A stretch of DNA of 64,000 nucleotides from Skermanella mucosa (lineage in GTDB: Bacteria > Pseudomonadota > Alphaproteobacteria > Azospirillales > Azospirillaceae): NCBI RefSeq assembly GCF_016765655.2, contig NZ_CP086106.1:3034501-3098500 (forward strand), in the 5' to 3' direction. Within the stretch, counting starts at the first letter, position 1. Every line of letters starts with the position of its first letter. Below are positions 52,262-54,463 of the stretch, one piece after another. The position numbers and the translations under genes are program-made. Below the pieces are notes generated by a model. It ran no database searches, was not told the DNA's origin, and worked only from the letters and a program-made list of their open reading frames with translations.

Positions 52262-52636
52262 TCATCGGCCGAGGACGTGCAGCCGCAAGGCCTCGGCCAG
52301 ATCCTCGTCACTGAAGGGCTTGGTAAGGATCGGACGTTCCCGGTGCTCCTCCGGCAAGGCATCCGCGCCGTGCCCCGTGGTGAAGATGAACGGGATGCCC
52401 TTCGCGGCGAGGGCATCCGCGACGGCATCGATCCGCTCGCCTCCCAGGCTGACGTCCAGGAGCGCACCGCCGAAGCCGCCGGCCTCTACCAGTCCGATCG
52501 CCTGCCCGACCGTGGTGGCCGGACCGACGAGACCGGCTCCCAGGTCCTCCAGGATATTCTCGACCACCATCGCGACCAGAAGCTCGTCCTCGACGACCAG
52601 GACCGATGGCGTGGCGTTCGGCTGACTGTTGCTCAA
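52262..52636 (-). CDS. Single-domain response regulator
   Basis: Receiver-only protein of 124 aa: acidic pair in VLVVEDEL, phospho-Asp in GALLDVSLGG, Thr in IPFIFTTGHG and Lys in ILTKPFSD. The longer open frame upstream is not coding; the start is taken as TTG 52636 with GAGG 5 bases upstream. It converges with the SDR gene (3 bases between stops). Its kinase is not adjacent. Confidence 0.85.
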   Translation of the reverse strand: MSNSQPNATPSVLVVEDELLVAMVVENILEDLGAGLVGPATTVGQAIGLVEAGGFGGALLDVSLGGERIDAVADALAAKGIPFIFTTGHGADALPEEHRERPILTKPFSDEDLAEALRLHVLGR

Positions 52637-52896
52637 TTGTGCCTCGCAATTGGATGGGCCCGGCACCCAGGGTGGCCGGCACCGACGAACACTCCTATTA
52701 TGGGTTCGGACCACGGGAACGGCCAGGGGCCGTATCCTTCCGTACCTGTTCCCGTTTGCGCCGCATCGAACATGGTACCGGCGCGACGGTCGGCTTCTCC
52801 GACGCCGATGGATGTTGATGAGGGCAGTCCGCGCGGGATAGTTTGAACCCAACGGAACGTTGAGGTGTTCAGCATCCGCAGGTAGGGGAGGCGACC

Positions 52897-53190
52897 ATAG
52901 CTATCCGTAAAGCCAAGGCCGGCGGTTCCGCCGCGTCGATCGGCGCGACTTCCATCGCCCAGCAGACGGGAGAGACCATCGAACGCGACCGTCTGCGGGC
53001 GGAGATCGACCGCCTGCGCCAGGAGGTCGGAAGCCTCACCCAGCGCCTGGACGAAGCGAACGATCAGCGGGTGGCGGACGCCGACCGCCACCAGATCGAA
53101 GTCGAGCGGCTTGAATCCACGCTCAGGCACTTGCGCTCCGAGTTGGAAGACGCTCGGCGCCCGTGGCTGACCAAGCTGTGGCGGAAGTGA
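52897..53190 (+). CDS. Coiled-coil protein, apparently with an ATA start codon
   Basis: An open frame of 97 sense codons to TGA 53188-53190 encodes an Arg/Glu/Leu-rich protein with long heptads (DRLRAEIDRLRQEVGSLTQR, then VERLESTLRHLRSELEDARR) and the end WLTKLWRK. Third-position GC is strong. No ATG, GTG or TTG lies between the upstream in-frame TGA (52861-52863) and codon 60, but ATA at 52897 follows a near-ideal GGGGAGG at 5 bases. A perfect 11-bp hairpin begins 7 bases after the stop. I therefore call a real gene with a rare start, or one carrying a sequence error at the start. Function: probably a structural or scaffold coiled coil. Confidence 0.6.
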   Translation: MAIRKAKAGGSAASIGATSIAQQTGETIERDRLRAEIDRLRQEVGSLTQRLDEANDQRVADADRHQIEVERLESTLRHLRSELEDARRPWLTKLWRK

Positions 53191-53197
53191 CGACGGC

Positions 53198-53223
53198 GGG
53201 CGGAGCCGAGCGCGGCTCCGCCC
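53198..53223. terminator. Hairpin between the coiled-coil gene and the M20 gene
   Basis: An 11-bp perfect stem (53198-53208 with 53213-53223) with a 4-base loop lies between the two convergent stops. No U-tract. Confidence 0.65.
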
Positions 53224-53230
53224 GGGCGGA

Positions 53231-54463
53231 TCAGGCGGCCAGCAGGTCGGCCAGGGTCAGGGCTATCACCTGCGTCGCCTTGCGCAGGTCTTCCAGCACC
53301 AGCTTCTCGTCCGCCCGATGCCCGTTGGCATCCAGCAGCGAGCGCGGACCCGCGCCGTACAGCACGGTGGGAATGCCTGCCGCGCTGTACAGCCGCGCAT
53401 CGGTGTAGAGCGGCACGCCGTTCGCCGGGATTTCCTCGCCGATGATGTCGCGCGCGTGGTGCTGGATCAGCGCCGCCAGCTTCTCATGACCCGGCAGCGG
53501 GGTAAGCGGCCGGGCGAGCAGGATCCGGCGGATGGCGACCCGGATCCCTGGGGTTTCGGCGCAGGTCCTCTCGATGAAGGCACGCATGTCGGCCTCCACC
53601 TGTTCCGGGTTCTCCTCCGGGATCATGCGGCGGTCTATCCGGAGCGTCACCACGTCGGGCACGACGTTGGTATTGATGCCGCCGCTGATCAACCCGACCA
53701 CCAGGGTCGGATGGTCGATGCCATCCACTTCCGACCTGGTGCTCCCGAAATCGTCGTTGAGGGCATAGAGCGCGGTCAACAACCGGTTGGCGGCCCGGAG
53801 CGCATCCACACCGGTATCGGGCCGAGCGGCATGGGCCGACTTGCCTTCGACCCGCACTTCCAGGTGCAGGCAACCGTTGTGCGCGACGACGACGTTATAG
53901 GAGAAGCCGGCGCTGATCGCGAAGTCAGGCTTGCTGATCCCCTGCTCCAGCAGCCAGCCCGGACCGATCAGGCCGCCGGCCTCCTCGTCGTAGGTCAGGT
54001 GCAGCTCGACGGTGCCGGCCAGCGGCAGCCCGCTTTCCTCCAGGGCCTTCAGGGCGAAGGCGTAGGTCGCGAAGTCGGACTTGGAGACGGCGACGCCCCG
54101 CCCGTACATGACGCCGTCGCGGATCTCCGCGCCATAGGGATCGGTCGACCAGCCCTCGCCCGGCGGAACCACGTCGCCATGGGCATTCAACGCCACCACC
54201 GGCCCCGGACCAAACTTCCGCCGGATCACGAGGTTCGTGGCGCTGATCATGCCGTTGGCCTTGACTGTGGCCTCGGGCACCACATGCCGCTCGACGGTGA
54301 AGCCCATCCCCTCCAGCAGTTCGGCGGAACGCGCGGCGTGGGCGGCGCAGTCACCCGGCGGATTGTCCGACGGCACCTTGACCAGTTCGGCAAGAAACTC
54401 GGTCTGGGCCTTGTGCCGCCGGTCTATGCTGTCTCGGATCTTCTGCTGCTGGTCGGGAGTCAT
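53231..54463 (-). CDS. M20 family (ArgE/DapE-like) peptidase homologue with altered metal site
   Basis: Protein of 410 aa with the M20 two-domain layout: catalytic parts about 1-190 and 310-410, dimerisation lid about 195-305 (SAHAARPDTG). Seen are the first metal His95 with Asp97 (NAHGDVV), the catalytic/ligand pair Glu160-Glu161 (YDEEAGG) and the C-terminal His (DANGHRADEKL). The metal-bridging Asp expected in GRGxxDMK is Val126 (GRGVAVSKSD), and the later Glu/Asp ligand (ISAGF region) is not evident. It may be a divergent subfamily, use Asp130 instead, or be inactive. The TCAATATTGA palindrome 69-78 bases upstream may be an operator. Confidence 0.82.
   Translation of the reverse strand: MTPDQQQKIRDSIDRRHKAQTEFLAELVKVPSDNPPGDCAAHAARSAELLEGMGFTVERHVVPEATVKANGMISATNLVIRRKFGPGPVVALNAHGDVVPPGEGWSTDPYGAEIRDGVMYGRGVAVSKSDFATYAFALKALEESGLPLAGTVELHLTYDEEAGGLIGPGWLLEQGISKPDFAISAGFSYNVVVAHNGCLHLEVRVEGKSAHAARPDTGVDALRAANRLLTALYALNDDFGSTRSEVDGIDHPTLVVGLISGGINTNVVPDVVTLRIDRRMIPEENPEQVEADMRAFIERTCAETPGIRVAIRRILLARPLTPLPGHEKLAALIQHHARDIIGEEIPANGVPLYTDARLYSAAGIPTVLYGAGPRSLLDANGHRADEKLVLEDLRKATQVIALTLADLLAA

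Follow-up and report, generated by a model that had tools for sequence, protein, structure and literature searches.

Does the frame at positions 52897-53190 on the plus strand of a 64,000-nucleotide stretch of Skermanella mucosa DNA (the window, which lies within a 6.4-Mb contig) encode a protein that begins at ATA, and if so, what could such a start codon mean for the gene? The reading that we favour, with a probability of about three in four, is that of a genus-restricted helical protein whose translation would be attenuated by a weak AUA start behind a strong Shine-Dalgarno sequence, with initiation factor IF3 discriminating against that start.

Architecture of the frame

The frame opens with ATA at 52897-52899, runs for 97 sense codons and closes with TGA at 53188-53190. 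An in-frame TGA at 52861-52863 bounds it upstream, and the 11 intervening codons contain no ATG, GTG or TTG. The first-pass annotation had placed the earliest of these three codons at codon 60; the long absence of canonical starts that it described is real, while the codon in question, a GTG, is codon 59. The Shine-Dalgarno sequence GGGGAGG at 52885-52891 on the plus strand ends 5 nt before the ATA, precisely as had been claimed. GC content at codon positions 1, 2 and 3 is 0.70, 0.48 and 0.82, in keeping with the earlier description of 97 sense codons rich in third-position GC.

Orthologues and selection on the frame

Orthologues with the frame kept are present in all five Skermanella genomes examined, the window's own included, and the four others (S. 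stibiiresistens and the genomes G001, G002 and G003) encode proteins 73-96% identical to that of the window. A length difference of 15 nt among the orthologues is in frame. In a profile search of 82 genomes of the family, only the five Skermanella genomes matched at E 1e-5 or better; none of the 77 others did so at this threshold, with only 62 candidate places scored in many of them. Three weak matches in other genera of the family, from a single-sequence search (E 2e-4 to 6e-4), were read as generic coiled coil, and a Planctomycetaceae match (L010, 39% identity over query residues 4-81) looks like generic coiled coil as well. A plasmid search gave no match in a comparison that possibly left out near records.

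The frame bears the marks of purifying selection. Over codons 2-97, dN/dS lies at 0.06-0.18 in all ten pairs of orthologues. Over codons 2-58, which precede the first canonical start, it lies at 0.07-0.16 in eight of the ten; it is 0.53 between the window and G002, where changes are few, and undefined between the window and G001, where synonymous change is saturated. Codons 2-32, which precede the first CTG, GTG, TTG or ATG, are conserved as protein. Between the window and S. stibiiresistens, 11.0 of 20.5 synonymous sites have changed in this part against 5.0 of 57.5 nonsynonymous sites (Fisher p=9e-5), and the corresponding comparison with G001 gives p=1.5e-7. Close pairs yield p=0.043 for G002 and p=0.17, not significant, for G003, the closest relative of the window. 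Judged by its frame and by the selection acting on it, 52897-53190 is a real gene specific to Skermanella, and the coding sequence, stop included, is best described as that of a 97-residue protein predicted to form a single coiled-coil helix.

The start codon in five species

The position of the start is drawn from the comparison between species. The column occupied by the ATA of the window also holds ATA in G003 and G002, with ATC in G001 and ATG in S. stibiiresistens, and GGGGAGG with its 5-nt spacing is invariant in all five orthologues. The 29 nt preceding the start are identical in the window and S. stibiiresistens, and over codons 2-11 the same two sequences differ at codon positions 1, 2 and 3 in zero, zero and five places, respectively. 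An identical leader followed by differences confined to third positions indicates that change of the coding type begins directly behind the start codon, where fMet would be expected to be incorporated. The leader is a net 3 nt longer in G001, and that of S. stibiiresistens contains one additional T.

Two features by which an AUN start may be recognized, a non-canonical codon that recurs in one column across several species and a strong Shine-Dalgarno sequence at suitable spacing, are thus both found here. A further one, the absence of a canonical start upstream, is seen in the window, G002 and G003, which have none in the 11 codons that separate the ATA from the upstream stop and none before codon 59; S. 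stibiiresistens has an ATG, and G001 has an upstream ATG. In-frame upstream ATGs lie 11 codons away in S. stibiiresistens and 16 codons away in G001, neither behind a Shine-Dalgarno sequence that convinces by eye, and the one in G001 gives its ATC less certainty as a start than ATA has in the window, G002 and G003. On this alignment, AUA appears to be the start codon of the gene in three species, and AUC in a fourth. The first-pass annotation, in which the gene seemed to start at ATA, had left its reading open to orthologues that begin elsewhere or lose the frame; what the comparison returned was the same ATA in two further genomes, a conserved frame and a start in a single column.

Chance expectation and screens for similar genes

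The motif as such is no rarity. In the window, the single occurrence of GGAGG-N5-ATA compares with an expectation of 0.73. The whole genome contains 30 matches to GGAGG-N4-8-ATAGC, which fall on 28 distinct ATA sites because two sites are each matched twice, and a reversed control gives 47. The genome is therefore not enriched for this pattern and gives no sign of a wider set of AUA starts, although the pattern would miss Skermanella infC, the Shine-Dalgarno sequence of which differs. With counts at the level of chance the motif alone is no evidence, and it is the comparison between species that makes this ATA site more than a chance occurrence. Among the 30 matches, the coiled-coil gene alone combines GC3>GC1>GC2 with an upstream open stretch of <20 codons and a distant first canonical start. 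In the window, 35 long frames with 15,109 codons between them contain 32 ATA codons.

We also screened a sample consisting of 458.5 kb of the window genome (G000) against 400 kb of G002, which gave 245 strict coding frames. In 63 of these, the first canonical start is preceded by 15 or more aligned codons, and a loose test applied by eye to the table of values (at least 30 codons, overlap <0.1, pN<pS and GC3>GC1>GC2) was passed by three, the coiled-coil gene and two others; the remaining 60 were set aside on table values alone. The two others have an ordinary GTG or ATG directly behind a Shine-Dalgarno-like sequence and were rejected, which leaves the coiled-coil gene as the one frame in which 30 or more conserved codons pass without a canonical start. 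It scores weakly in this close pair, with four synonymous and six nonsynonymous changes before its first canonical start, and short cases are missed, so that no more can be concluded from the screen than that genes of this kind are uncommon.

Alternative accounts of the start

A misread or misassembled base at 52899, with ATG as the true codon, would call for a single-base change and would restore the codon of S. stibiiresistens. However, ATA stands in the same context in two other genomes and ATC in a third, and the make-up of the start column, together with the invariant GGGGAGG before it, makes such an error very unlikely, to the extent that we give it next to no weight. Under a second account, translation would begin at another codon: the ATC of codon 3, one of the internal codons CTG33 and GTG59, or a near-cognate codon upstream of the ATA. 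The lack of a canonical start at the ATA site, the presence of CTG33 in all five orthologues and the upstream in-frame ATGs of S. stibiiresistens and G001 lend this account some appeal, but we consider it improbable: codon 3 is ATC in the window and ATT or TCG in two more distant species, purifying selection on codons 2-32 shows in the distant pairs, and GTG59 is replaced by GTC in G001. An upstream start sits poorly with a leader that is unlike the coding part, both in the 29 nt shared with S. stibiiresistens and in the net 3-nt gain of G001, and the only Shine-Dalgarno sequence that is strong by eye points at the ATA.

Drift deserves more attention. Here an ancestral ATG would have become ATA, and ATC in another lineage, and the strong Shine-Dalgarno sequence would sustain sufficient translation; AUA would be used but tolerated rather than selected, with no regulation attached. 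This account overlaps that of an attenuated start, and we hold it possible, at clearly less than even odds. It gains from the ATG of S. stibiiresistens, which shows that a weak start is not obligatory, from the close relationship of the three ATA species (dS 0.22-0.34 over codons 2-97), in which ATA may represent a single event, and from a genome in which AUA starts are not enriched. It loses from the fact that ATA is common to three species although one transition gives ATG, that a second lineage has ATC, and that the protein is under purifying selection and presumably needed. Across the five species, the weak start may serve regulation or be tolerated drift.

Leader, hairpins and neighbourhood

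A weak promoter candidate was picked out by eye at 52815-52842 on the plus strand, comprising TTGATG, a 16-nt spacer and GATAGT. TTGAWG stands 16 nt before GATAGK in all five orthologues, while the spacer sequence varies, and within the region of the candidate GCGGGATAG is invariant by eye in all five. A consensus scan called neither a promoter nor a terminator at the gene. Downstream of the candidate, the short inverted repeat CAACG-GAA-CGTTG at 52850-52862 on the plus strand is a weak candidate for an RNA hairpin or an operator in the leader. In the alignment of five sequences, 24 of 25 cells are paired, two of the five pairs have changed on both sides, and 17 of 500 shuffles do as well; the 88-nt leader from 52848 folds no better than shuffled sequence (z 0.15; 110 of 200 shuffles match or better it). 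An upstream frame of six codons (GTG 52865 to TAG 52883) was rejected by eye, because G001 and S. stibiiresistens both lack it.

The perfect hairpin that the first-pass annotation saw 7 bases past the stop lies at 53198-53223 on the plus strand, with the 10-bp stem and loop GGGCGGAGCC-GAGCGC-GGCTCCGCCC. It stands between convergent genes and is a terminator candidate, one that has no T-run. By eye, all 10 pairs are kept in G003 and nine of 10 in G002, where one has changed on both sides; S. stibiiresistens and G001 have no hairpin directly after the stop.

Upstream of the gene lies a response-regulator gene, scanned at 52262-52624 on the minus strand, and downstream an ArgE/DapE-family deacylase gene at 53231-54463, also on the minus strand. 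Simple gene calls show neither neighbour at the S. stibiiresistens locus, where the coiled-coil gene is still present, which suggests that it is probably a unit of its own; in G003 the same kind of calls do not show the response regulator at the locus. Upstream of the gene in G003 lies a frame of 372 aa, similar by eye to a short-chain dehydrogenase; G002 and the window (about 52700-52810) apparently retain only remnants of this frame.

The predicted protein

After a short N-terminus, basic and disordered, the protein would form one long helix that has the periodicity of a coiled coil; the C-terminal sequence is RRPWLTKLWRK. AlphaFold2 predicts a single helix over residues 11-96 (mean pLDDT 85) after an N-terminus of low confidence, and the hydrophobic 3.5-residue periodicity over residues 26-88 is equalled in strength by 65 of 5000 shuffles. 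These data bear out the coiled-coil composition ascribed to the frame beforehand. No family claims the protein: none of the best 25 of 42 Pfam matches exceeds its cut-off (the top one, Sec2p, scores 23.2 against 28.5), so that among the Pfam matches listed no score rises above the curated cut-off for SlyX, ZapB, Sec2p or other coiled-coil families. The one NCBIfam match scores 20.7 against a cut-off of 300, two weak PHROGs matches are both of unknown function, and the PDB gave no match at 0.001. As a guess, the product might associate with itself and serve as a scaffold or adaptor of which the cell needs few copies.

infC in the same family

The gene for IF3, infC, offers a second view of ATA starts in these genomes. 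ATA stands at its likely start in all 35 Azospirillaceae loci inspected, five from Skermanella and 30 from other genera, the latter being the best-scoring loci of an infC search of 82 genomes and not a random draw. The ATA is followed by GCC in 34 loci and by GCA in one, and a Shine-Dalgarno-like sequence precedes it in all 35; in three of the five Skermanella loci, the infC frame also contains an ATG farther upstream. The wider context reads ATA GCC AGR in the 34 and ATA GCA CGG in the one, as seen, for instance, upstream of G000:C1:5662400-5662609. In one genus (g3, G006-G050), 33 of 45 genomes have more than one infC match (32 have two and G038 has three), often on different contigs.

In a class-wide alphaproteobacterial sample, infC was found in 110 of 115 genomes. 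Thirty of these loci were fetched, and the frame could be located by motif in 15, of which eight have ATA and four ATC at the likely start by eye, some with an ATG nearby. From these loci AUA and AUC look common as the start of alphaproteobacterial infC, and the coiled-coil gene has the same two codons. The ATA at the likely start of infC in the same genomes makes IF3 dependence of the coiled-coil gene more plausible.

Proposed mechanism and comparison with known systems

Under the preferred reading of an attenuated AUA start, the strong GGGGAGG would position ribosomes for initiation with fMet-tRNA on AUA, and the imperfect pairing between AUA and CAU would lead IF3 to reject most of the initiation complexes. 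The protein would then be made at a low, attenuated rate, which would rise when IF3 is scarce relative to 30 S subunits. We infer the use of AUA, the attenuation and the control by IF3 from starts of the infC and pcnB type. A bolder proposal, which we put forward as speculation and think unlikely, is that the gene belongs to an IF3-sensing circuit of Skermanella, in which an AUA start common with infC would let the protein track lax initiation (low IF3 or excess 30 S subunits) and act on ribosomes or the cell envelope at such times.

Gene finding limited to ATG, GTG and TTG would lose most of a conserved small gene. The five orthologues also form a natural set, three with ATA, one with ATC and one with ATG behind the same Shine-Dalgarno sequence, that would make the effects of start codon and IF3 directly testable in an alphaproteobacterium. 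Searches of the literature on Skermanella, AUA and other non-AUG starts, infC, pcnB and proteogenomics returned nothing on the coiled-coil gene among the matches listed.

A close comparison is with infC, which in Escherichia coli is under autocontrol. Like the coiled-coil gene it has a Shine-Dalgarno sequence followed by an AUN start other than AUG, and its likely start is ATA in each of the five Skermanella genomes; unlike it, infC is widespread and its product discriminates between start codons, whereas the coiled-coil gene was seen in no genus but Skermanella and shows no kinship with IF3. In E. coli pcnB, which differs in encoding a known enzyme, poly(A) polymerase, expression is reportedly limited by an inefficient AUN start (AUU), a finding ascribed to Binns and Masters in 2002, and output limited by a weak AUN start is what we propose for the Skermanella gene.

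Among the matches listed for AUA, ATA and non-AUG starts, the only one to describe conserved AUA or AUC starts in bacterial genes other than infC was a study of Staphylococcus aureus. That study describes a strong Shine-Dalgarno sequence with a near-cognate start in S. aureus infC, ccpN and cvfC1 (PMC13009471). In its reporters for ccpN, cvfC1 and citZ, AUA or AUU gave about 10% of the output of AUG in poor medium, and the non-canonical start of ccpN reached up to 30% in rich medium (PMC13009471). As presented there, ccpN of S. aureus and Bacillus subtilis (AUA) and cvfC1 of S. aureus (AUU) likewise join a conserved non-canonical start to a strong Shine-Dalgarno sequence outside infC, and cvfC1, like the Skermanella gene, encodes a small protein, of 61 aa (PMC13009471). 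They differ in belonging to another phylum and encoding other proteins, and the S. aureus starts, according to the same study, were tested by ribosome profiling and reporters, whereas the Skermanella start is read from sequence (PMC13009471). Set beside these systems, the coiled-coil gene adds one more conserved gene with an AUA or AUC start, and not a new mechanism.
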